Assembly: GCA_007116635.1 (NCBI GenBank) | Contig: SKIB01000129.1 | Location: forward strand, 1 to 36,033 | Direction of reading: 5' to 3' | Length of the DNA: 36,033 bases | DNA from: Saccharospirillaceae bacterium | GTDB lineage: Bacteria; Pseudomonadota; Gammaproteobacteria; Pseudomonadales; Natronospirillaceae | Shown here: positions 4,535 to 15,326 of the stretch, in pieces | Position numbering within the stretch: position 1 is the first letter of the stretch | Layout of the letters: each line of letters begins with the position of its first letter | Translations under genes and position numbers: made by a program | Notes under the pieces: generated by a model | Told to the model about the DNA's origin: nothing | The model's database searches: none | Seen by the model: only the letters and a program-made list of their open reading frames with translations

Positions 4535-4702
4535 AATGGCATCTCCGCACAAAAACGGACCTATTGTCGCTGCTGTGGCCAAGAAAGCAACTGGCTCTGG
4601 CATCAGGATGCCAAGAATGATGCAAAGAAGGCATTGGTCTGGTCAGCAAACAACCAATTAATAATCTACACTTTAAGTAACTTTCGGCTGAGCACCAGCA
4701 AG

Positions 4703-5422
4703 ATGAAAAACGACAACTCGAAGCAAGAACAGCTAGCCATGCTTGGGCTACTCACCTCAGGTGTGGCGCACGAACTCAAAACCCCCCTTGCCTTTGTGCA
4801 CAGTAATCTGGGTTCGCTGGAAGGCTACCTGGCCGATTTGCAACAATGCCAAGAGGCTGAAAAAACCCAACTCATCCTTGAAGCGCAAGAAATCCTCAAA
4901 GAAAGCCTTGAAGGCCTGCACCGCATGAACGACATCATCGGCTCGGTGTCCAGCTACAACAAACAACAGGCACCGCCAGAATCCATGCCTGCCAACGCGC
5001 CACTGAATATCGCCATTCAGCTGACTTGGCACCAGCTCAAGTACAGCGTTGAAGTGCGGCAGTTTTTAGACGCGCAGCAGTACATTTCTGGCGTGCAGGG
5101 CAAATTAATTCAAGTCTTTGTCAATCTGATCATCAATGCGGTGCAGGCCATGGCCGAGCAACAGCAAAAAAAGCTCTATTTAGAGTCATACGACAAAGAC
5201 GGGCGGGTTTATTACCTGATCGCTGACAATGGCCCCGGCATTTCAAAGCAGGTGCAGGCCAAGATTTTTGATCTCTTCTTCACTACCAAAGGATCTGAGG
5301 GCACTGGTCTTGGCCTGGCACTGAGCCAAGAAATACTCAGTGCTCATGGTGGGGACATCCAACTGGTTGACCATGAACTGTGCGGCGCGGCCTTTCGGCT
5401 GAGCCTGCCTGCTGTAAACTGA
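4703..5422 (+). CDS. Short cytoplasmic sensor histidine kinase
   Basis: A 239-residue kinase with no sensor domain and no membrane segment. It begins almost directly with the phospho-acceptor region (GVAHELKTPL), followed by a helical linker and a GHKL ATPase domain with N-box (VNLIINAVQAM), G1 (DNGPGI), F-box (FDLFFTTK) and G2 (GTGLGLAL). All catalytic motifs look intact. The ATG at 4703 was preferred to a TTG 69 bases upstream, since the extra residues are not kinase-like. The ribosome site is weak. It is separated by seven bases from a larger kinase with a similar catalytic half, so the two are probably co-transcribed and may act as a pair. The likely partner is the response regulator encoded convergently at 7155-8507. 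Input signal unknown. Confidence 0.85.
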   Translation: MKNDNSKQEQLAMLGLLTSGVAHELKTPLAFVHSNLGSLEGYLADLQQCQEAEKTQLILEAQEILKESLEGLHRMNDIIGSVSSYNKQQAPPESMPANAPLNIAIQLTWHQLKYSVEVRQFLDAQQYISGVQGKLIQVFVNLIINAVQAMAEQQQKKLYLESYDKDGRVYYLIADNGPGISKQVQAKIFDLFFTTKGSEGTGLGLALSQEILSAHGGDIQLVDHELCGAAFRLSLPAVN

Positions 5423-5429
5423 GGTATCT

Positions 5430-7094
5430 ATGAATTACATCGAACAAGAAATGCTACGCCTCTGGTTCTTACAGGCTAGAACGCCAGTGGTGATTCTTGA
5501 GCAGGGAATAATCAGTAAGATGAATCCGGCGGCGGAGTATTTTTATGGCACCAAACTCAAACCAGGGGATTCGCTCACCCGCATCGTGCCGGATTTTTCG
5601 ATGTCGGTCACTGGCGAACAGCGCCTTGAGAACATTGAGGGCCTGCCGGTCAAGGTGGAGCTGATTCGTGAGGCCGACGATGGCATCGCCATGGCGGTAT
5701 TGCACCATGGGAGAGGCACGCAGCAAGACGATTTCGCTCGCTGGTTGACCAATCTGCATAAGATCAGCAAATCTCTGTCTGAGTGCGCCACCCCTAACGA
5801 TGTGTATCGCTACGCCATTGATGCCGCCAAAATGCTGCTCGACATTGACCGCATTGGCCTGCTTCTGATCGTGCCCGGCACCAACGAATTCGTGGGCACC
5901 TGGGGCACCAATGAAGACGGAGATACGGTGGATGAAAGTGACTACCGTGAACCCATTCCTAACTCGCCCTGGGCTGAAGAAACTCTGGCCCGCAAGGACT
6001 CAGTGGCTGTCTGGGAAAACATCCCTCTGCACCACTATGGCAAAGAAGTTGGTCTGGGCTGGAACGCCATGGCCGCGCTCTGGGATGGTGAACAAGCCAT
6101 TGGTTGGATTGCGTGCGATAACCTGCTGAACCGCCGCCCCATGACAGCCGAACATCGCGAAGTCATCCGCCTCTTTGCCTCGCTGCTGGGCCAAGCCATC
6201 ATTCGCAAACGGGCAGAGATGCAATTGCGTGAAATCAATGACAACCTTGAGCAGGTGGTTGAGGAGCGTACCGCCAGCCTAAATGCCAAGATGCTGGAAC
6301 TCAATCAAACGCAGCAGCGTTTGATCCAAGCCGAAAAGAGGGCTGCTCTGGCCAAACTGGTGGTGGGCGTGGCGCATGAAATCAACAACCCCCTAGCCAT
6401 GGTAATCAGCAATCTGAGCGTCCTGACCTCCTATGTACAGGATTTGCAGCACTTGGCTGCCGATCAGATCATGGAGCCACAGCTTGCTGAACAAATTTTA
6501 GAGCTGCCCGACATCGTCAAGGACTGCAACAAAGCCTTAGAGCGCATCAAGCTGATCACCAGTGACCTGCAAGGCTTCAGCGTACAGCAGATTGGCCAGC
6601 AAGAAAAAACCGAACTTTTGCCCTTGATACAGTCCCTGACTTCAAGAGCCAAACCCGGAATTACGATCAGCCTAGAGCAGCAGGAGTTGGCAGACGCCAG
6701 CGTCAACATGAGCAGTAACCAATTGCATAAGGTGCTGCAACAAATCGTCGACAACAGCATTAGTGCCATCGAACAGGCCGGCAGGGCTGAAGGCAGAATT
6801 GTCCTTCACTGCTCGCAACCCACTAAAGAGCGGGTTCGAATCAGCATCGAAGACAATGGCTGCGGCATGACCAAAGAAGTGATTAATCGAGCATTCGACC
6901 CCTTCTTCACCACCAAACAGGTGGGCCAAGGAACAGGACTAGGCTTAGCAGTGGCTTCTAGCCTAATCAATGCCGTGGGTGGCAGCATCGAGCTGACCAG
7001 CCAACCTGCCAAGGGCACCACGGTGACCATTGAATTTCCGGCTGTCATTCACCATAAGAATATCAGCCAATTGGCGGCCACTAAGAAGGGTTAG
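5430..7094 (+). CDS. PAS/GAF-domain sensor histidine kinase
   Basis: A 554-residue cytoplasmic kinase. Residues about 10-95 look like a PAS-type sensor, about 110-260 like a GAF domain, about 270-300 like a coiled coil. Then come the H-box (GVAHEINNPLAM), N-box (DNSISAI), G1 (DNGCGM), F-box (FDPFFTTK) and G2 (GTGLGLAV). No transmembrane segment is evident, so it probably binds a soluble ligand or partner. It starts seven bases after the short kinase stop with GAGG before the ATG, which indicates one operon. Its catalytic half resembles that of the upstream kinase, including the rare SNL stretch after the H-box, suggesting duplication. It ends facing the response regulator gene, with a hairpin between them. 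Confidence 0.87.
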   Translation: MNYIEQEMLRLWFLQARTPVVILEQGIISKMNPAAEYFYGTKLKPGDSLTRIVPDFSMSVTGEQRLENIEGLPVKVELIREADDGIAMAVLHHGRGTQQDDFARWLTNLHKISKSLSECATPNDVYRYAIDAAKMLLDIDRIGLLLIVPGTNEFVGTWGTNEDGDTVDESDYREPIPNSPWAEETLARKDSVAVWENIPLHHYGKEVGLGWNAMAALWDGEQAIGWIACDNLLNRRPMTAEHREVIRLFASLLGQAIIRKRAEMQLREINDNLEQVVEERTASLNAKMLELNQTQQRLIQAEKRAALAKLVVGVAHEINNPLAMVISNLSVLTSYVQDLQHLAADQIMEPQLAEQILELPDIVKDCNKALERIKLITSDLQGFSVQQIGQQEKTELLPLIQSLTSRAKPGITISLEQQELADASVNMSSNQLHKVLQQIVDNSISAIEQAGRAEGRIVLHCSQPTKERVRISIEDNGCGMTKEVINRAFDPFFTTKQVGQGTGLGLAVASSLINAVGGSIELTSQPAKGTTVTIEFPAVIHHKNISQLAATKKG

Positions 7095-7154: not shown

Positions 7155-8507
7155 CTACTTCGAGTCCTGCTGTTGCTGCTTAGCTTCTTCTAACGCTTTA
7201 CGCACCCCAAGATCGATCTGCAGTACATACTGCTCATCATGAGTTTCCTCAATTTCTTTTAGCTTACTGATGACCTTTTCGTTAATAATCAAACCCGCTG
7301 ACAGTAACAAAAAACCTGACTTGCTGATTAAATTACGCGCAATCTTATCACCCACAACCAACTGATCCACCCTAACTACATCTCTGCGCAAGGCTTGCTC
7401 ATTGGCGGAAACCTTCTCCACCGCCTGAGAAAAGACCTCAACGATCTGTGGGTCATAGTCCTTGCCTGAACGCAGCACAATCCAGTCCAGTGCGTCCTCA
7501 GGGGACAGCTCTTTGGCCATGCGCTGGCCGGATTGCATGGCATAGTAATCAATGCATGGCGCCAAAATTCGTGCCCCGAAGGGAACTGCATCTGCACGCA
7601 GTTTGTCCGGGTAACCCAAGCCATTCCAGGCCTCTCGATGATGGCGCACCAAGGTGGCTGAATCGTGGAGGTAACTAATGCTCAATAGCATTTCTTGACC
7701 GTAGATGGGGTACATCTTGTACTCCTCTCGCTCAGGCTTGGTCATGCCGGCTTCTTCTTTGGCTAATAAACGCTCTGGCAAACGAATTTTGCCAATCTCA
7801 TGCAGCAGTGCCGCCTGCTCAATGGCGCTGCACTCCACCGGGCTAAGATCGAACATTTCCGCCATGGCCAGAGCCAAAGACGCAGATCGCTCGGCCACCC
7901 CTGCGTACATGCCATGTCTTGAGCTGGCAAGAAAGCTAAACATGCGCACAAAACCTTGAATGCTATTTTGCATTTCTTGGTACGAAGCCTCGACCATGGC
8001 TTCAATCTGCTCAAGCTCCGCAGTGCTGTGGTGCAGCTTGGAGTTCAAACCTTGGTTCATGTCGATCAGCATTTTGTTTTGCTTGCGCATGATCACCAGC
8101 ATGCGGTCCCGCTCCCGCCGGATTTGCACCAATTCCAGAGCCGACTCGACTGCTGATTGCAGCTGCTCCGGCAACCAGGGCTTGGCCAAGAAACGAAAGA
8201 TGCCACCGTCGTTGATCGCCGCGACCGTGTCTTCAAGATCTGCTTGGCCGGTGAGTAAGATAGTCATAATACGCGGGTATTTTGACTTAACCTCTTTTAA
8301 TAGCTGCGCTCCACTCATCTCTGGCATGCGCATATCAGATACCACAACATCAACAGTACTCTCAGCAAGCAACTCTAGAGCTTCAGCTCCTGAGCCGGCA
8401 AACTCTAACTGCCAAGGTTGTTTGCGAAGTTCGCGACGTATGGCATTGAGCACCATGGGCTCATCATCAACAAATAACACCACAGGCTGTTTAGCTGCCT
8501 CCGTCAT
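7155..8507 (-). CDS. Response regulator with degenerate HD-GYP-like output domain
   Basis: 450 residues. A receiver domain (about 8-125) has the acidic pair D14/D15, phospho-acceptor D58 in SDMRMPE, a conserved T and a KPW lysine motif. A helical linker leads to an HD-GYP-like domain (about 175-390), followed by about 60 uncharacterised residues. The HD pair reads HE (LLHEIGK), the following HPxxG reads YPIYG, and the signature reads HREAWNGLGYP. The fold is therefore recognisable, but several metal ligands of active cyclic-di-GMP phosphodiesterases are changed. The ATG at 8507 has AGAGG five bases upstream; a GTG at 8513 is possible. It overlaps the end of the upstream GGDEF/EAL gene by 17 bp and is the last gene of its operon. 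The two convergent histidine kinases are plausible phosphodonors. Confidence 0.82.
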   Translation of the reverse strand: MTEAAKQPVVLFVDDEPMVLNAIRRELRKQPWQLEFAGSGAEALELLAESTVDVVVSDMRMPEMSGAQLLKEVKSKYPRIMTILLTGQADLEDTVAAINDGGIFRFLAKPWLPEQLQSAVESALELVQIRRERDRMLVIMRKQNKMLIDMNQGLNSKLHHSTAELEQIEAMVEASYQEMQNSIQGFVRMFSFLASSRHGMYAGVAERSASLALAMAEMFDLSPVECSAIEQAALLHEIGKIRLPERLLAKEEAGMTKPEREEYKMYPIYGQEMLLSISYLHDSATLVRHHREAWNGLGYPDKLRADAVPFGARILAPCIDYYAMQSGQRMAKELSPEDALDWIVLRSGKDYDPQIVEVFSQAVEKVSANEQALRRDVVRVDQLVVGDKIARNLISKSGFLLLSAGLIINEKVISKLKEIEETHDEQYVLQIDLGVRKALEEAKQQQQDSK

Positions 8508-10452
8508 AGGCACCTCTACTTAAGGGGATGGTAGGCTTTACCATCTGAGTTGGCTGATCATAATCTAAGGACAATTGTAAAATATCTTTGATGGGTTTGG
8601 CTTGAGACCAATAATATCCCTGCCCTGAGTCACAGCCAAGATCGCTCAGTAAACTGGCCTCTTCAACATACTCGATGCCTTCAGCTACCAAAGCAAGATT
8701 CAGGCTTTGGGCCATCTGTATTACTGCGGTTACCAAAGCTCTATTATTTTTGTTTTGATGAAGATTCGTAATCAGACTGCGATCAATTTTTAGAGTATTT
8801 ACCTCAAATCGCTGCAGGTTAATCAAGTTTGAGTAACCTGTACCAAAATCGTCAATGGCAAAACTGACTCCATGGCCTGCCAGAGCCCTAATGGTGGCAA
8901 GAACCTGTTGATGCTGAGTTGAAAAAACTTCCTCGGTAATCTCAAGCTCTAAAGAGCTAGGGGATAATTGATGATTGGCCAAACATTGTAGGACACCTTG
9001 TACAAAGGGCTCACCAACCAGTTGTGATACCGAAACATTGACACATACTATCATTTTGCTATTTTTCTGCCGGTTAATTTCCGCAAGATCCTGACAAGCC
9101 TTATTCAACACAAAGTCGCCCAGCTGGTGTATTAGGCCTGAGCTTTCAGCAAGGGCAACAAAGTAACTGGGCGCCAAAGCTCCATAGTTAGGATGAGTCC
9201 AACGCAATAGAGCTTCGCATTTAGTGATCTTATTCTGCTGTAAGTCAACTATGGGTTGATACTGAACCTCAAGGGCAGCTTCTTTTAAGGCCTGCTGTAG
9301 GTCCTTTGTGATACAAGCATCCTTTTCTTGCTGAACTCTTAGCTGTGCATAATAATAGCACCAGCAATCTCTTCCCTGCCTTTTCGCTTCATTTAAAGCC
9401 AGATTAGCAGCAGCAAAAAGCTCACTGGCATCCTGAGCATCATTTGGCCAACGAGCAATGCCCGCTGAAAAACAAAATGACAAGCCTAGGCCCTGCTCCT
9501 TATCTTCCTGGTTTTCATCCTTAGCTAACATCATTAGCTTTTGAATATCTTGCTCAACTTTACCATTCTGATCTCTTTTCAGCAGGATCAAAAACTCATC
9601 AGCGCCGATACGATACACCTGATCAGGAAATGAGAACTCAGACCTTAACTGACTGGCAAAATGTCGCAATATTTTGTCACCAGCCACTGTACCATGAATG
9701 CTATTAATACGCTTAAAGTGATCAATATTTACCACCACCATATAAAGGCTCTGGAAGTTCTTACGCTCAGCCTGCATCTTGGAAAAGCGAATAAAGGCTG
9801 AGCTACGGTTAGGCAGACCAGTCAAGAGGTCATTTTCCGACAAATATCGACTTAACTCATAGCTTTCTGCTGCGCGCTTAATCTGTAACCTGAGTTGTTG
9901 AATGTTCTCTCTTAGATCCGAGAGTAGCCAGTGAATGGCTAGGCCCAAACTTGTGAAAACCGCTAAATTCGTCACTAGGCTCGGCAAGGCCTGCTGCTCA
10001 GTCACAGCCACATGCCAACCCAGTTGCCCAGCGACGAATACCAAACAAATAATCAATATACCCAGTATGAAACTAGCAACAAACCACTTTCGACTACCGA
10101 CTAAGGCAGCAAAAATCATTATGCCAGGCAAGGCAATAATGGCTGTCGACTGTAGCCCCTGGCCAAGCCACATTACGGCAAAACAAACCAGCAATAGAGT
10201 ACAGATAAAGAAACTTAGCTGCCAAGTACCTTGACTTCGATGCAGATCTCCTCGGTTTCGATGCCAGGAAAGGCCTATAACCAACACAGTAAAAGCGCCC
10301 AAAGTAAGAATCAAGGACGTTGTGGTACGGGCAAACAACCAAGAAGTGCAGGTTAGAATGACTAGCGTAACCAGACTTAATAACAACACCTGAGTAAAAC
10401 GCTTTTGATGTAGCTCGGATTCTATGACTTTATCCTGCTCACTAAGCCTCAT
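8491..10452 (-). CDS. Membrane GGDEF/EAL cyclic-di-GMP protein
   Basis: 653 residues. About six hydrophobic helices occupy residues 18-190. A GGDEF domain follows with the signature changed to GADEF (283-287) and no RxxD inhibitory site, then an EAL domain with E413-A-L, NVSVSQL, EITEE, DDFGTGYS, KIDRS and AEGIE, all intact. The likely activity is cyclic-di-GMP hydrolysis, with the GGDEF half regulatory or weak. AGGAGG six bases before the ATG at 10452 fixes the start, overlapping the preceding phosphatase gene by 11 bp, which implies translational coupling. The membrane part resembles that of the phosphatase: both share MW-x-G-x-GL-x-S-x-A about 95 residues from the start and an AA-x-x-GS 22 residues on. 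Confidence 0.88.
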   Translation of the reverse strand: MRLSEQDKVIESELHQKRFTQVLLLSLVTLVILTCTSWLFARTTTSLILTLGAFTVLVIGLSWHRNRGDLHRSQGTWQLSFFICTLLLVCFAVMWLGQGLQSTAIIALPGIMIFAALVGSRKWFVASFILGILIICLVFVAGQLGWHVAVTEQQALPSLVTNLAVFTSLGLAIHWLLSDLRENIQQLRLQIKRAAESYELSRYLSENDLLTGLPNRSSAFIRFSKMQAERKNFQSLYMVVVNIDHFKRINSIHGTVAGDKILRHFASQLRSEFSFPDQVYRIGADEFLILLKRDQNGKVEQDIQKLMMLAKDENQEDKEQGLGLSFCFSAGIARWPNDAQDASELFAAANLALNEAKRQGRDCWCYYYAQLRVQQEKDACITKDLQQALKEAALEVQYQPIVDLQQNKITKCEALLRWTHPNYGALAPSYFVALAESSGLIHQLGDFVLNKACQDLAEINRQKNSKMIVCVNVSVSQLVGEPFVQGVLQCLANHQLSPSSLELEITEEVFSTQHQQVLATIRALAGHGVSFAIDDFGTGYSNLINLQRFEVNTLKIDRSLITNLHQNKNNRALVTAVIQMAQSLNLALVAEGIEYVEEASLLSDLGCDSGQGYYWSQAKPIKDILQLSLDYDQPTQMVKPTIPLSRGAYDGGS

Positions 10453-11716
10453 AACCAGCCTCCTGTTCCTTAGACTGGGCCAACTTAGCAAAATCTATCA
10501 ACACCAATGCCAGATCATCTTCAAGGCGACTAGTACCCACTTGCTGGAAAAATGCATGCTTAAGTTCAGTTAGCCAGCCCATATTCGAGAAGCCCGGCAT
10601 TTGGCGCTGTAAATGCTCAAGGGTAAAGCCGGTACTCTCATGCTCCTTAAAAGCAAGAATGCCATCTGTCACCACCAGAAAAGCCCCTAGACTCACGAGT
10701 GGAGCTTGCTGAATTTTAACCATCAAGCCTTCGCTGGCAACGATACCCAAAGCTAGCATACTGGATGCAAAAGACCTCTGAACCTGGCCCATCTCATCCA
10801 ACAGCCAAATATCTGGTAAACCAGCATTGATGATTTCTATTCGTTCAGTAGCGCTGTTAATTTCAATAAGGGCTACTGCCACAAATTGCTCAGGAGGCAA
10901 TAATTGATGCACCTGCTGATTCAAACGATAAAACAACTCACGAAGGCCGAGCTTAGATTGTCGAAACTCAAACAAAACAGGCATAAGCGCCATGGCTGCT
11001 GCCATATCTTGTCCAGTGGCATCAACCACCATTAGCTGCCAACAGTCAGGACTGATCTGACGCATTAGAATAAAGTCACCACCAAATGCATGATGAGTAT
11101 GTAGCCAATGAGTGACCCAAGGAACACTTACTCGATGGTCACGAAACATGTGCTCAAAATTTTTACGGGCCTGTTGCGATTGTTGCTCACGAGCCATAAT
11201 ACGCGCCGACAAATTTGGATAGGCTCGTAAAATCAGGGTAAAAAGCAGAAAGATCAGCATGTATTCCAATAACTCTAGACCACTTAGTAGCCCATTTGCT
11301 GTGCGCAAGCCAAAGTGGCTGGCTGAGTAAAGGATTAAGATCGACAACTGGACCAGTACTGCCGTTAAATACAGATGCCAATGTGAGCCCATAATAGCGG
11401 CATAGGCTAGGATTAACATCATACCCAGCAAAGCAGAGGACTCCAGTCCCGCACCAATCCACATAAGCATGACCAACAGAATAAAGTTGATCACTAACAG
11501 CCACCAAAAGGCAAACTGCTGTTGCTGACGATGCAAGAGCCAGATACCAAAGGGCAAAAGTAGTAAAGCAAAACAGATAAATAGTGCTGCCAGCCACTGC
11601 TGAAACAATACTTTCTGCAGCAACAGCATAAAGTACAACAGGGTACAGGCTAGAATCAGTAGCAAGTACCGCAGCGACCATGAAGTAGGAGAAAGACTAA
11701 AGACATCTGTTCTCAT
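10442..11716 (-). CDS. Membrane SpoIIE/RsbU-type PP2C serine phosphatase
   Basis: 424 residues. About six membrane helices (18-185) form a sensor of unknown ligand, a short helical connector follows, then a PP2C-type phosphatase of the SpoIIE group (about 200-410). FGGDF, the DATGQD segment and the terminal EDDLALVLI hold the aspartates that bind metal in this family. Such enzymes dephosphorylate STAS proteins, and a STAS gene lies 71 bp upstream in the same orientation. The membrane domain aligns without gaps over a 27-residue stretch (85-111) with residues 94-120 of the GGDEF/EAL protein next door. Start at 11716 is the only reasonable ATG, although its ribosome site is poor. Confidence 0.85.
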   Translation of the reverse strand: MRTDVFSLSPTSWSLRYLLLILACTLLYFMLLLQKVLFQQWLAALFICFALLLLPFGIWLLHRQQQQFAFWWLLVINFILLVMLMWIGAGLESSALLGMMLILAYAAIMGSHWHLYLTAVLVQLSILILYSASHFGLRTANGLLSGLELLEYMLIFLLFTLILRAYPNLSARIMAREQQSQQARKNFEHMFRDHRVSVPWVTHWLHTHHAFGGDFILMRQISPDCWQLMVVDATGQDMAAAMALMPVLFEFRQSKLGLRELFYRLNQQVHQLLPPEQFVAVALIEINSATERIEIINAGLPDIWLLDEMGQVQRSFASSMLALGIVASEGLMVKIQQAPLVSLGAFLVVTDGILAFKEHESTGFTLEHLQRQMPGFSNMGWLTELKHAFFQQVGTSRLEDDLALVLIDFAKLAQSKEQEAGYEA

Positions 11717-11724
11717 TGGGCATC

Positions 11725-11744
11725 CAAACAGCTAATACTGTTTG
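11725..11744 (-). promoter_or_regulatory. Perfect dyad between STAS and phosphatase genes
   Basis: CAAACAG (11725-11731) and CTGTTTG (11738-11744) are perfect inverted repeats around six bases, nine bases ahead of the phosphatase start codon. In mRNA this would form a hairpin near the ribosome site and could lower or time translation of the phosphatase relative to STAS. No T-run follows, so it is not a terminator. Confidence 0.4.
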
Positions 11745-11787
11745 CAGTGTAGACCCTAAAACACTAGCCAGCCAAAAATGAGAAAAC

Positions 11788-12078
11788 TTAACGAATAATA
11801 AACATCTGATCTAGACGTGCAATTGCCACGATCTCTGCTGCCAACCCCTGTAAATTGACAAGCACTATGCGCATTGACTTCTCTTCAGCCTGCTTATTCG
11901 CCATGACCATCATCCCTAGCGCTGAGCTATCAAGGTACTGGACCTGGGCAAAATCTAGCACAATTTCCTCTTCTGTAGCCTGCTGCTCGCCCAACAAGGA
12001 CAGAATTTGCTGCTCAAAACTCTGAAAAAACGAATAATCAAATCGCTCAGGTAACAGAATGGCATTGGAAGTACCCAT
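11788..12078 (-). CDS. STAS-domain anti-sigma-factor antagonist-like protein
   Basis: A 96-residue single-domain STAS protein, the type of switch protein phosphorylated on serine by an anti-sigma-like kinase and reset by a SpoIIE phosphatase. The phosphorylatable serine lies in the motif YLDSSALG (S51/S52). The ATG at 12078 has AAGGA six bases upstream. It is the first gene of the set STAS, phosphatase, GGDEF/EAL, response regulator. A comparable logic is known for HsbA in Pseudomonas aeruginosa, where a STAS protein links a phosphatase/kinase switch to a diguanylate cyclase and to the flagellar anti-sigma factor FlgM. No serine kinase of the RsbW type is visible in the window. Confidence 0.88.
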   Translation of the reverse strand: MGTSNAILLPERFDYSFFQSFEQQILSLLGEQQATEEEIVLDFAQVQYLDSSALGMMVMANKQAEEKSMRIVLVNLQGLAAEIVAIARLDQMFIIR

Positions 12079-12171: not shown

Positions 12172-13284
12172 ATGAATTATTTTGCCCAGATCAAGCCCAA
12201 CATAGCTCAACCTAAGCCAAGCCTACTGATCGTCTTTGGTTTGTTGATTTCCTACAGTCTTTACTCTTTAACTCAGAGCCCTAGTTTGGATCTGCTCAAT
12301 GACCCTGCCTTCTTAAAAAGCTGGATTGATGACCGCAGCCTAAGGGGGCGATCACAAGCCAGCCTGTATCACGAAAATAACATGCTAGTCCTTGAGTGCA
12401 AGCTTGAAGAAAGTAGTTACCAATGGCCTTTCTGCGGTCTGAGACTAAGCTGGGATAGTCGCAACCAGGGAATTGAATTTTTAGATGCAGGTGAATTTGA
12501 TTATTTGCAAATATCTCTGGGCTATCGAGAGCTACCCAAGGTAGAAGCTTCAGTTCGGCTTCATCTCAATGCTCAGCTTCCCATGTCTGCTGGAGGCCAA
12601 ATTAAGCATCAAGAGTTAACAATCCCTGCCAATCATCAAACACAAGCCATTGATTTGCATAGTTTTGAAATACCAATTTGGTGGTTGCGTGAACACCAGG
12701 ACTTATCTGCTAGCTACAAGAAGCTGCAGCTCAGTGCTATTCGTCGAATTCAGATTTATACTGGCCAAGAGTTGAACAAAGGGACTTATCACCTAGAAAT
12801 AGAAGAACTAAAAATGGTCAAGCACTCTAGGCTTCAAGCTTGGCAGGGCGCAATCCTTACTTTGGCTTACTGGCTACTGGTCGGATATTCTCTAAGAGAT
12901 GGTTCTAGGCTGGCATCTAACAATAGACGTGAACCAGACTGGGAGTCACTATGCCAATCTCAAACAGCCCAACAACGACCACTAGGCATACTGTTACTGA
13001 GCTCAAATCATAACCAAATCGAATACTATCGCCCTTGGTTACCTGCAAATCATGAAGCACATCAGGATACTCAAGGACTGATGATCTTGCTCGCCGGCCA
13101 TTCCATTGAGCAAACAGAACTAATTGCACGTAAACTATTAGTACGAGAGCCAATGCTGTGCATTGGTGTGAGCAATTGTGCCGACAATGAGTCACTTCAG
13201 GCAGGTTACCATCGCGCTATTCAGGCACTGAGTTCTGCTATTGCGCTTGGTCCTAATCATGTCATCATTGCACAACAGACCTAG
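12172..13284 (+). CDS. Membrane protein with periplasmic domain and relic GGDEF-like C-terminus
   Basis: 370 residues with no sure family assignment. Residues about 17-35 are a membrane anchor; about 45-215 form a beta-rich, probably periplasmic domain that could be a galactose-binding-like fold; about 222-243 is a second membrane helix; about 250-370 is cytoplasmic. The last 60 residues follow the end of a GGDEF domain (LMILLA..., CIGVSN..., a helix ending LGPNHV), but the GGDEF motif and metal aspartates are absent and the domain is too short. It could be a decayed cyclase kept as a receptor or scaffold. It is divergent from the STAS operon and nine bases before a small membrane gene. The start at 12172 has no clear ribosome site. 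Confidence 0.6.
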   Translation: MNYFAQIKPNIAQPKPSLLIVFGLLISYSLYSLTQSPSLDLLNDPAFLKSWIDDRSLRGRSQASLYHENNMLVLECKLEESSYQWPFCGLRLSWDSRNQGIEFLDAGEFDYLQISLGYRELPKVEASVRLHLNAQLPMSAGGQIKHQELTIPANHQTQAIDLHSFEIPIWWLREHQDLSASYKKLQLSAIRRIQIYTGQELNKGTYHLEIEELKMVKHSRLQAWQGAILTLAYWLLVGYSLRDGSRLASNNRREPDWESLCQSQTAQQRPLGILLLSSNHNQIEYYRPWLPANHEAHQDTQGLMILLAGHSIEQTELIARKLLVREPMLCIGVSNCADNESLQAGYHRAIQALSSAIALGPNHVIIAQQT

Positions 13285-13593: not shown

Positions 13594-14553
13594 CTAGAAT
13601 ATTTCTTGGGGTGACAAACGGAATAAATTTTCTGTGCCAGGCAAAATTGGACTGGGAGGTTCAAACCTAGGGCCATCATAGGTTGGATTATCACGACGAA
13701 TGCTAATTTCGACCCGCCTATTTCTAGACCTCCCATCAAGAGTCTCATTTTCCGCTAGAGGCCTGGCCTCACCATGACCAATGATCATAAACCTATTGTT
13801 ATCAAGAGCGGGCTCTTCAAATAAATATTCTGCCACTGACATGGCTCGGGCTACTGACAACCACCAATTGCTGGGGTACCTGGTAGTATTAATGGGCAGG
13901 TTATCAGTATGACCCTCAATGACAATGTCTCCCTCTGTTGCTGCCAATAGGAAACGAATTCGATCAAGGATCGGCATAAACTCTGGGCGGAGAGTGGAAC
14001 TACCGCCTGGAAAGGACTGTTCTTTGATACGGATGATAATGATGTCACTAATGGTTTCAATTTCGATCAGACCTTGCTGGATTTCTGCTCTTAACTCTTC
14101 CGCAAGATCTGCAGCCTGCTCCCGGACCTGTTCTGCCTGCTGTTGGTCTTGAATAGTAATCTGGCTAGAACGCTCGCCATCTTCGCCTTCGCTCTCCATC
14201 TGCATCAGCATTGGGTCTTGGCAGAGTACTTCTAAACTATCCCTCAGGTCATCAACCGTCATCTGACGAATCACATTTAAGGCTGTTGGATTAGGAGTGC
14301 CAGGCGAGAACTCTTGGGCAATGATGCTGGTGCCCTTAGGGATAGCGTTAGCCTCAATGTCACGCTGAACACCAAAAGCATTGCGCATCGAGCCCGCCAA
14401 GCGCTTAAATTTTAGCGCATCCAATTCAGAAAAGGACAGCAGTAGCACAAAGAAGCACATCAACAGCGCCATCAAATCTGAAAAGGTCGCCATCCAGGCC
14501 GGTAAGCCCGGTTTACATTTGCACTTTTCTTCTTCTTCCTCGTTTGCTGCCAT
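13594..14553 (-). CDS. pomB: Flagellar stator protein PomB (MotB family)
   Basis: 319 residues. After an acidic start there is one membrane helix with the ion-binding aspartate D26 (AWMATFSDL), a plug/linker region, and a C-terminal OmpA-like peptidoglycan-binding domain (about 190-305, with GHTDN and RNRRVEI). It forms the ion channel of the flagellar stator with PomA and anchors it to the wall. The partner resembles Vibrio PomA much more than E. coli MotA, so sodium is the likely coupling ion. The start lies eight bases after the pomA stop. An internal stretch rich in Glu and Gln (about 115-150) is longer than in short MotB proteins. Confidence 0.92.
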   Translation of the reverse strand: MAANEEEEEKCKCKPGLPAWMATFSDLMALLMCFFVLLLSFSELDALKFKRLAGSMRNAFGVQRDIEANAIPKGTSIIAQEFSPGTPNPTALNVIRQMTVDDLRDSLEVLCQDPMLMQMESEGEDGERSSQITIQDQQQAEQVREQAADLAEELRAEIQQGLIEIETISDIIIIRIKEQSFPGGSSTLRPEFMPILDRIRFLLAATEGDIVIEGHTDNLPINTTRYPSNWWLSVARAMSVAEYLFEEPALDNNRFMIIGHGEARPLAENETLDGRSRNRRVEISIRRDNPTYDGPRFEPPSPILPGTENLFRLSPQEIF

Positions 14554-14561
14554 AAGTACTC

Positions 14562-15326
14562 CTAGGCAGCCACTTCTTCAACAGGACGTTGACGACCCGG
14601 CAGATAGGTTTGCAGCATTTCATCAATGATGCGCGGGTTTTGCCCCCCCTGAATGGCCAACAGACCATCAATAATGATGCGCATCACTGTCTCTTCTTGT
14701 CTTGTCCTGACTAAACACTTTTGCTTAATGGGACCAAAGACAATGGTGGCCATGATCGAACCATAAAGGGTGGTTAACAGAGCCACCGCCATCGCGGGGC
14801 CAATGGTTTGCGGGTCATCCATGTTGGCCAACATGCCCACCAAACCAATAAGAGTGCCCATCATACCCATTGCAGGAGCCACATCCTGCAAGCCACCAAA
14901 GATATCTGCACCGGCCTCATGCCTCTCGGTGGTTAATTTCATGTCCCGAGACATAATAGTGCGAATTACATCAGCATCATGACCATCCACCAACAATTGT
15001 ATGCCCTTGCTTAAGAAAGGATGACCTACCTCTCTACCCTCAAGCGACAGCAAGCCACCCTTGCGTGCGGCATCGGCGATTTCAACGATTTCTTTGATCA
15101 GGTCCGGTGCAGCAATCAGCTTAAAAGAGTAGGCCTTTCCTGCAATTTTGCCGGCATTTAGGTACTGTTCTAAAGTATAGTGCTGCATGGTCACGAACAA
15201 AGAACCAATGACCACAATCAAGACCGAGGGCAAATTATAAAAAATACTGATATCGCCACCGATGACCATGGCCAAGATAATCATGGCAATGCCGCCGGCT
15301 AAACCCACAATGGTCGCTAAATCCAT
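14562..15326 (-). CDS. pomA: Flagellar stator protein PomA (MotA family)
   Basis: 254 residues with four membrane helices. It shares many stretches with Vibrio PomA, including MDLATI at the start, IAGKA, ADAARKGG, LLVDGHDADV, DVAPAMGMMGT and GPAMAVALLTTLYG, and the same overall length. It conducts ions with PomB and pushes on the rotor protein FliG. AAGGGG six bases before the ATG supports the start. A sigma-28 promoter lies about 30 bp upstream (15355-15381), so pomA and pomB are expected to be late flagellar genes. Confidence 0.94.
   Translation of the reverse strand: MDLATIVGLAGGIAMIILAMVIGGDISIFYNLPSVLIVVIGSLFVTMQHYTLEQYLNAGKIAGKAYSFKLIAAPDLIKEIVEIADAARKGGLLSLEGREVGHPFLSKGIQLLVDGHDADVIRTIMSRDMKLTTERHEAGADIFGGLQDVAPAMGMMGTLIGLVGMLANMDDPQTIGPAMAVALLTTLYGSIMATIVFGPIKQKCLVRTRQEETVMRIIIDGLLAIQGGQNPRIIDEMLQTYLPGRQRPVEEVAA

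Follow-up and report, generated by a model that had tools for sequence, protein, structure and literature searches.

Two overlapping genes of a Saccharospirillaceae bacterium place related membrane domains on two different enzymes, a SpoIIE-type phosphatase (P0001) and a GGDEF-EAL protein (P0002) predicted to degrade cyclic diguanosine monophosphate (c-di-GMP). The DNA considered here, the window, is a stretch of 36,033 nucleotides (contig SKIB01000129.1 of assembly GCA_007116635.1). On its minus strand, from 12078 down to 7155, genes for a STAS-domain protein (P0004), the phosphatase, the GGDEF-EAL protein and a response regulator with a receiver and an HD-GYP-type domain (P0003) follow one another in series. 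Comparison of sequence profiles confirms that the membrane halves of P0001 and P0002 are homologous along their full length, beyond the 27 residues on which the likeness was first noticed. That one type of sensor is set on two kinds of output within a single operon is real, and so far it is a single case.

Two homologous membrane domains

P0001 (424 amino acids; 10442..11716, minus strand, as all features of the operon) and P0002 (653 amino acids; 8491..10452) both begin with a membrane region. In the first, it is delimited as a six-helix domain at residues 1-170 (11207..11716) by hmmsearch, hhalign and an AlphaFold2 model; in the second, as a six-segment domain at residues 1-183 (9904..10452) by profile similarity and six hydrophobic segments. 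A preliminary description of this DNA had aligned a block of P0001, MWIGAGLESSALLGMMLILAYAAIMGS (residues 85-111; 11384..11464), without gaps with a block of P0002, MWLGQGLQSTAIIALPGIMIFAALVGS (residues 94-120; 10093..10173), counting 12 identities over 27 positions, and this is exactly what the two sequences give. Taken alone the block is weak evidence, only moderately unusual, since 2 of 300 shuffles preserving composition classes also reached 12 identities. For the membrane regions at large, BLASTP returns an E value of 2e-7 over 76 residues, with 28% identity there. A profile was made of 13 proteins, P0002 and 12 GGDEF or GGDEF-EAL homologues from other genomes. Against it, the membrane part of P0001 (residues 20-190) scores 60.9 bits with hmmsearch and attains a probability of 98.5% with hhalign (E 2.4e-15, 162 columns). 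Residues 1-192 score 59.6 bits, against at most 20.0 in 2,000 shuffles (four kinds, 500 each, some of them preserving the local pattern of hydrophobicity) and a score of -10.6 when the sequence is reversed.

The proteins found with the two domains tell the same story. In a set of 96 genomes, the source genome included (21 are of its family, and no other is of its genus), the membrane part of P0001 matches, at E<=0.001, five places in other genomes, none of them an unrelated membrane protein, and that of P0002 matches twelve, among which are four of the five. The fifth (G013) is a GGDEF-EAL protein related to P0002 at E 5e-88. Eleven of the twelve are GGDEF-EAL or GGDEF proteins, and the last is marginal (G050, E 6.5e-4), with in-frame stops and no recognisable product. 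General hydrophobicity as the cause of the likeness is ruled out by the shuffles and by the identity of the proteins matched. With BLASTP, hmmsearch, hhalign and shuffles in agreement, the initial proposal of one unnamed multi-helix membrane domain on both proteins stands, as does its expectation that a profile comparison would find more than a shared hydrophobic character.

A roaming sensor family

The domain has about 170 residues, with six hydrophobic segments in P0002 and a comparable pattern in P0001. An AlphaFold2 model of residues 1-200 of P0001, made with eight sequences (predicted local distance difference test, pLDDT, 77.3; predicted template modelling score, pTM, 0.68), has helices at 10-36, 41-62, 66-87, 92-109, 112-134 and 146-197, the sixth of which continues towards the enzyme domain. 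In the consensus of 24 sequences an arginine stands near the start and an aspartate after helix 6, while the motif MW...GLRD.A.L..P lies around the junction of helix 3 with the helix that follows; its first methionine and one glycine (G90 of P0001) are invariant in all 24 rows.

No fitting Pfam model emerged from 14 members: 20 families appear at E<=1, scattered and at best at E 0.011, with 7TM-7TMR_HD matching one member (E 0.013) and MASE1, MASE3-7, MHYT, 7TMR-DISM and 6TM_PilS absent from the list. MASE2, a multi-helix membrane domain known from the cyclase AdrA, has no Pfam match (PF05230) at E<=1 in these members either. It was the one named membrane sensor compared profile to profile, eight of its sequences having been gathered from other genomes, and the alignment is in register, weak and not significant (probability 22% and 13%; column-shuffle controls reach no more than 0.5% in a set of 20 and 8.4% in a set of 100). 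An identity with MASE2 is rejected, and the comparison with MASE-type domains suggested in the preliminary description gave the domain no name. A profile of three of the eight MASE2 sequences found no solved structure, nor did the 24-row profile of the domain find one by sequence, even at E<=10. With a slower structure aligner the top match is the membrane part of ImcA, from a cryo-EM structure (Z 11.9, 179 residues, root-mean-square deviation 6.1), and an adenylyl cyclase also aligns over a long membrane stretch (Z 9.6, 182 residues); the former is to be taken as a lead only, because helical bundles can reach such Z values by chance.

In the order to which the source belongs, 28 of 391 genomes have a match to the domain at E<=0.001, in 34 places, 30 of which reach E<=1e-20 (the strong occurrences, the window's two included). 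The outputs, read from the fetched loci, are GGDEF-EAL in 22 of these 30 (P0002 among them), GGDEF alone in five, a split GGDEF/EAL pair, a histidine kinase with a receiver (L120) and a phosphatase, P0001, in one each; of the four weaker places, one holds a GGDEF protein (G016) and three show no recognised output. Samples of the class and of the phylum, which overlap with that of the order and like it contain the source genome, have the domain in 5 of 370 and 21 of 397 genomes, on GGDEF-EAL or GGDEF proteins and on one further clear histidine kinase (L169). Among weak matches, five with a domain E of 2e-6 to 2e-8 have outputs, namely GGDEF (L152), PAS-GGDEF-EAL (L176), a histidine kinase (L177) and PAS proteins running into a HisKA domain (L175, L178), and three more have none that is recognised (L153, L154, L179). 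No second phosphatase carrying the domain was found in the order, class or phylum samples, in which weak members can be missed because the first pass was limited, for most genomes, to 8 or 9 candidates. Seven named loci, including those of Saccharospirillum impatiens, Thalassolituus alkanivorans and Thiopseudomonas denitrificans, all code for GGDEF-EAL proteins; at least three of them (L181, L182, L185) are the same as G018, G020 and G376 and hence not independent. As judged from its sequences, the six-helix domain is a roaming sensor family with four kinds of output. The family has no fitting Pfam model and no sequence match in the Protein Data Bank, and discovery of its ligand would inform on many c-di-GMP enzymes of Gammaproteobacteria.

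Two side observations belong here. The histidine kinases bearing the domain (L120:477-2315 and L169:1477-2859) are more evidence of an exchangeable sensor. At L113:7652-9552 (G180), a GGDEF-EAL member has its GGDEF half in one frame and its EAL half in a second that overlaps the first; a frameshift, a real split gene or a sequencing error could account for this.

The enzymes of the operon and the matter of the kinase

The phosphatase domain of P0001 (10490..11050; Pfam SpoIIE, residues 223-409, 1.2e-20) scores 74.7 bits against a curated cut-off of 25 (PF07228), and 77.6 bits in another scan. The acidic positions of its four motifs, GGD, D(ATG), DG and DD, are kept, as they are in all 12 aligned SpoIIE domains. 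No receiver, HATPase or HAMP match appears in P0001 at E<=0.1 (Pfam), and no solved structure matches its sequence at E<=0.01. In P0002, the GGDEF domain (9367..9834; Pfam 4.5e-28) is degenerate: asparagine replaces the first metal-binding aspartate (NID for DxD), the sole case among 29 aligned members, and the signature reads GADEF. The other 28 keep the aspartate, 23 of them reading GGDEF and 5 AGDEF. The preliminary description had missed this degeneracy. By contrast, the EAL domain (8602..9306; 7.4e-73) keeps every motif checked (EAL, N, E, DDFGTG, K, E, Q), whose residues have roles in catalysis. Because the EAL motifs are complete and the GGDEF domain is degenerate, P0002 is predicted to hydrolyse c-di-GMP, not to make it. 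With the checked catalytic positions kept in both the phosphatase and the EAL domain, the kinds of enzyme first named are probably correct.

P0004 (96 amino acids; 11788..12078) is a STAS protein of the HsbA/SpoIIAA type (Pfam STAS_2 2.6e-13, STAS 2.1e-10) with the D-S-S motif of HsbA-type proteins, here DSSALG, a serine of which we take, by family knowledge, to be the phosphorylated residue. Its best likeness is with a STAS protein on contig C97 of the same genome (64.8 bits). This genome codes for six SpoIIE proteins, four of which carry HATPase_c_2 in the same frame. Three of these four, scanned whole, are receiver-SpoIIE-HATPase proteins with a STAS gene beside each, and the fourth lies at a contig end. 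The remaining two, P0001 and a protein of 411 amino acids, have no kinase domain. A separate RsbW-like kinase was sought and not seen: of the HATPase_c_2 matches over the cut-off, the two that are left belong to ordinary histidine kinases. The simplest inference is that the STAS kinase acts in trans, most likely from an HsbR-like protein. The 411-residue protein (L005:1486-2721, contig C102) is a second kinase-less SpoIIE phosphatase, in which Pfam recognises only SpoIIE, at residues 225-407.

A gap of 71 bp separates the STAS and phosphatase genes, with no minus-strand promoter-like site in it in a promoter scan, and terminator-like sites are rarer than in shuffles. The phosphatase and GGDEF-EAL genes overlap by 11 bp, as had been claimed, and this overlap is supported because AGGAGG stands just 5' of the ATG at 10452. 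The GGDEF-EAL and receiver-HD genes overlap in turn by 17 or 23 bp, according to the start chosen for the latter.

The receiver-HD regulator and the neighbouring kinases

P0003 (7155..8513; Pfam Response_reg and HD_5) falls in the NosR family (NCBIfam NF053512, 423.6 bits against a cut-off of 400). In calling it a receiver-domain regulator the preliminary description was right about the receiver and missed the HD-GYP-type output. The HD-GYP motifs are broken, with HE for HD, YP for HP and HHR for HHE, and degeneracy is the rule in this set, since among 13 aligned relatives only one (L108) keeps the HD. The NosR of Burkholderia pseudomallei is degenerate as well and is thought to act via other proteins, according to an excerpt of PMC12570481. 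Two histidine kinase genes on the plus strand run towards the operon, the facing stops lying 60 bp apart. HK2 (5430..7094) has a GAF-like region, its GAF matches lying below the Pfam cut-off, and a HEINN motif; HK1 (4634..5422), which adjoins it, has no sensor domain that Pfam could find. HK2 is the probable partner of P0003. A genome of the same family (G007, locus L097) has counterparts of HK1, HK2 and the convergent receiver-HD gene (E 7e-53, 5e-157 and 8e-128), and no STAS, phosphatase or GGDEF-EAL gene was found in the 20 kb around this unit. Because G007 has the unit without the trio, the two kinases and the receiver-HD gene probably form an older assembly, to which the trio was added upstream here, or from which it was lost in G007.

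In four other loci of relatives (L098, L099, L102, L105) a receiver-HD gene comes after a receiver gene and a gene for 257-273 amino acids, with kinases on the opposite strand. The product of the latter is an HDOD protein, by Pfam in L105 and by eye in the other three, and the arrangement is a recurring unit.

A proposed mechanism

We place slightly better than even confidence in the following reading. A membrane-controlled partner-switch phosphatase, with its kinase in trans, works next to a c-di-GMP phosphodiesterase whose GGDEF domain is broken, the receiver-HD regulator belonging to an older unit. It starts from the homology of the membrane domains, the motifs, the absence of a kinase gene from the operon and the kinase/receiver unit that a relative has without the trio. 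The genes would be transcribed together. The phosphatase would be a membrane dimer on its six-helix sensor, the last helix of which runs on in the model as a linker to the phosphatase domain (about residues 171-197 of the helix 146-197; 11126..11206). A ligand, or a state of the membrane, would alter the packing of this linker, supposedly a coiled coil, and the phosphatase domains would then pair and switch on. The active enzyme would dephosphorylate the STAS protein, whose gene lies just upstream, at its serine, and the STAS protein would then take a new binding partner. Phosphate would be added in trans, since no kinase is encoded with the phosphatase, and most likely by one of the four SpoIIE-HATPase (HsbR-like) proteins of the genome. 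In P0002 the homologous sensor would set the EAL phosphodiesterase behind its inactive GGDEF domain, and c-di-GMP would fall. One membrane input, or two related ones, might thus set a motile state, with the STAS protein dephosphorylated and c-di-GMP low. Such joint setting is possible because the two proteins are presumably made together from overlapping genes, and a motility output would fit, because genes for MotA and MotB lie 1.5 kb from the STAS gene. P0003 would remain in its two-component unit with HK1 and HK2, the degenerate HD-GYP domain probably acting by protein contact, not hydrolysis. A common ligand for the two sensors would be the weakest step.

This scheme agrees with a general view of sensor sharing. 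PPM phosphatases, cyclases and kinases have sensors in common, and the basis proposed, in the portion of PMC12143880 available, is that all are dimers driven by helical linkers; the signalling helix (PMC1592074, likewise in part) points to the same basis. One domain feeding GGDEF-EAL, GGDEF, histidine kinase and phosphatase outputs is what a coiled-coil-linker model predicts, and a domain of cyclases, phosphodiesterases and kinases that appears to have been placed on a phosphatase fits this model.

To be sure, a number of observations weigh against this scheme. With the window's proteins as queries, phmmer found neither a STAS gene nor a separate SpoIIE gene near the 28 other strong occurrences of the domain; the flanks covered were about 5-8 kb long wherever the contig reached that far, and shorter for G009, G132 and G235:C23. 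The same STAS query did detect STAS genes elsewhere in relatives (E 2e-17 to 2e-8), and a very divergent one could escape it. The repeated co-occurrence of domain and STAS gene that had been anticipated is thus seen in none of the 28. The four-gene order is not found in the seven named loci. When 84,980 species, each represented by one genome, were scanned, possibly without the source genome, no close relative of P0001 appeared (12 stretches matched a pattern, none of them a relative). As sampled, both the phosphatase fusion and the four-gene order are unique to the source genome, which the preliminary description had itself named as an outcome that would speak against it. Co-evolution of the parts does not follow, because architecture and gene order were found only here.

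The two domains are moreover only 16-19% identical in three multiple alignments; in a smaller tree they do not pair and sit on long separate branches, and in a larger one they pair with a support of 82/33 and a long-branch warning. With such identity and with tree pairing weak or absent, a common ligand does not follow, and the idea that one signal resets both outputs is left unproven, since the domains resemble family members elsewhere at least as much as they resemble each other. P0001 reads GQD where the other 11 aligned domains read GHG (10) or GHA (1). The heptad pattern of its linker is weak (in the best register 0.56 of the a and d positions are hydrophobic; the value for P0002 is 0.78). 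The single-sequence model of the whole protein is poor (pLDDT 48.8), and with it the first row of a Foldseek search is a SpoIIE phosphatase domain at E 0.22. For the model of the membrane domain, Foldseek has no match among solved folds at E<=0.001, and the Z value with ImcA lies below the tool's caution level for helical bundles, about 13. Finally, the genome is a draft (146 contigs, 97% complete), so that a kinase gene could be missing from the assembly.

Part of the operon logic does recur. Six loci of relatives with short SpoIIE frames were fetched (L069-L073, L075), and in three of them (L069, L070, L075) a STAS gene adjoins the phosphatase gene. The phosphatases of these three loci join a receiver to SpoIIE and lack a kinase domain. 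What returns is therefore the pairing of a STAS protein with a kinase-less phosphatase, with a receiver and not the membrane domain in front, and without the full gene order. Since relatives pair STAS with kinase-less receiver-SpoIIE, a replacement of the sensor is favoured, in which the membrane domain would have taken the receiver's place. One of these loci, L070:5401-9269, from another family of the order, has genes for receiver-HD, STAS and receiver-SpoIIE proteins on one strand, the first about 1.2 kb upstream, behind two kinase-like genes. It looks like a receiver-based cousin of the layout.

Alternative readings

A more modest reading, possible though clearly less probable than the mechanism above, is that P0001 and P0002 carry two related and independent sensors with different ligands, sharing transcription only, and that the six-helix domain is a general-purpose family. 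The domain of P0001 is indeed closer to GGDEF and GGDEF-EAL domains of other genomes (best 24-29%) than to that of its neighbour, and both the long branches of the smaller tree and the empty count around the 28 other occurrences go the same way. Full independence sits less well with the overlapping genes, with the pairing in the larger tree, for what its support is worth, and with a serine that both proteins carry in place of the aspartate that GLRD has in most members, a substitution present also in a few other rows (for example L058, L061, L116, L123 and L124). The window's domains may have begun as a pair and diverged strongly, or may have been recruited separately, and the trees, as they stand, favour a recent duplication within the operon neither one way nor the other.

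That homologous domains come from overlapping genes also invites a mixed complex, in which the two membrane domains would touch and phosphatase and phosphodiesterase would control each other, instead of each reading a signal. We hold this unlikely, and a shade more so the mixed receptor it might yield, where a single membrane event would switch both activities, reciprocally or together, in one complex. ImcA is reported, in an excerpt of PMC10904736, to need its membrane helices to bind IsmP, a second membrane protein of c-di-GMP signalling and an inhibitor of ImcA. However, IsmP as described there has CHASE4, PAS, GGDEF and EAL domains, not the six-helix domain, and a shared dimer interface is uncertain at the identity that separates P0001 from P0002.

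It is improbable that the operon serves a nitric oxide pathway of the NosP/NosK/NosR kind, with P0003 as NosR and the STAS protein, phosphatase and EAL protein as effectors. P0003 does pass the NosR cut-off, HK2 has the HEINN motif reported for NosK (PMC12570481, as excerpted), and elsewhere in the genome a FIST-domain gene, of the NosP type, directly follows STAS and HsbR-like genes. But the NosR label is broad, because the three further receiver-HD proteins tested, from three genomes, pass the same cut-off. No relative of the genome's one FIST protein was found by phmmer in the window or in 16 receiver-HD neighbourhoods of other genomes, nor a FIST match by Pfam in the eight window proteins scanned, and at E 1e-20 the protein itself has no match among the NCBIfam models. 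The row of genes that includes it (contig C115, L157:1525-6715) has in series a STAS gene, an HsbR-like gene, the FIST-domain gene and a hybrid kinase gene (receiver, Hpt), after which come what look by eye like chemotaxis genes, and could be a heme- or nitric oxide-linked partner switch of its own.

Scarcely credible is an artefact of general hydrophobicity or of a misjoined stretch: a guanine plus cytosine (G+C) content of 0.44-0.46 sets the trio below most of the window, but this low G+C extends over motA/motB and the divergent genes and is nearly equalled in the same genome (L159, 0.464), the shuffles stay far below the real score, already refuting the part on homology, and in other genomes the proteins matched by the two domains are largely the same.

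Surroundings of the operon

A divergent gene starts 93 bp from the STAS gene and is followed by a short open reading frame and the MotB and MotA genes. Its product (12172-13284, plus strand, 370 amino acids) has no Pfam or NCBIfam match at E<=0.1; by eye, its N-terminus resembles an exported binding domain and its C-terminus a degenerate GGDEF-like region behind a membrane helix. The stator genes, of MotB and MotA type by Pfam, are at 13594-15326 on the minus strand, and genes read by eye as ispA and dxs adjoin them. Horizontal transfer is not concluded from the low G+C content of the trio, the neighbouring motA/motB genes being low as well.

Comparison with known systems

No paper on this fusion or gene order is among the matches listed in open-licence PubMed Central. 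ImcA of Pseudomonas aeruginosa (PA1851; structure 8wcn), like P0002, has six membrane helices ahead of a c-di-GMP enzyme (PMC10904736, in the part cited). The fold match extends into the linker, with a borderline Z and no sequence similarity in the profile search of solved structures. The output of ImcA is an active GGDEF domain, unlike the broken one of P0002.

The preliminary description had named HsbA/HsbD as the nearest known logic. The comparison is a fair one, though SiaABCD and the shared-linker model of phosphatases, cyclases and kinases come closer. Following an excerpt of PMC6482189, HsbR/HsbA/HsbD of P. aeruginosa and CrsR/CrsA of Shewanella likewise have a STAS-type switch under a PP2C phosphatase, tied to c-di-GMP and motility. 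In P. aeruginosa, HsbR adds phosphate to HsbA and also removes it, and the state of HsbA decides between biofilm and swimming. HsbR is a receiver-PP2C-kinase protein; P0001 has neither receiver nor kinase and begins with the membrane domain, and the source genome codes for four HsbR-like proteins as well. SiaABCD of P. aeruginosa, as presented in the accessible part of PMC7647112, also unites in an operon a membrane PP2C phosphatase, a phospho-switch protein and a c-di-GMP enzyme. SiaA has two membrane spans and a HAMP domain, in place of which P0001 has a six-helix domain and no HAMP match. The switch protein is SiaC there and a STAS protein here. SiaABCD encodes a kinase, SiaB, and Pfam names no such kinase in the four operon proteins. 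Lastly, SiaD makes c-di-GMP, whereas P0002 is a predicted phosphodiesterase that shares the phosphatase's type of sensor.

RsbU of Bacillus subtilis and its kin resemble the operon phosphatase in coupling a PPM domain through a linker to an exchangeable sensor. The sensors listed in the consulted portion of PMC12143880 are soluble or of HAMP type (the RsbU N-domain, PAS, GAF, receiver, HAMP, PAS/alpha-beta hydrolase). The operon phosphatase differs in its six-helix membrane sensor and in the presence of two types of output in one operon. Interest is limited by the single case, yet a natural pair in one operon makes sensor swaps directly testable. It contributes an example with a membrane sensor to the idea, recently put forward, that dimeric bacterial enzymes such as PPM phosphatases, cyclases and kinases exchange sensors freely.

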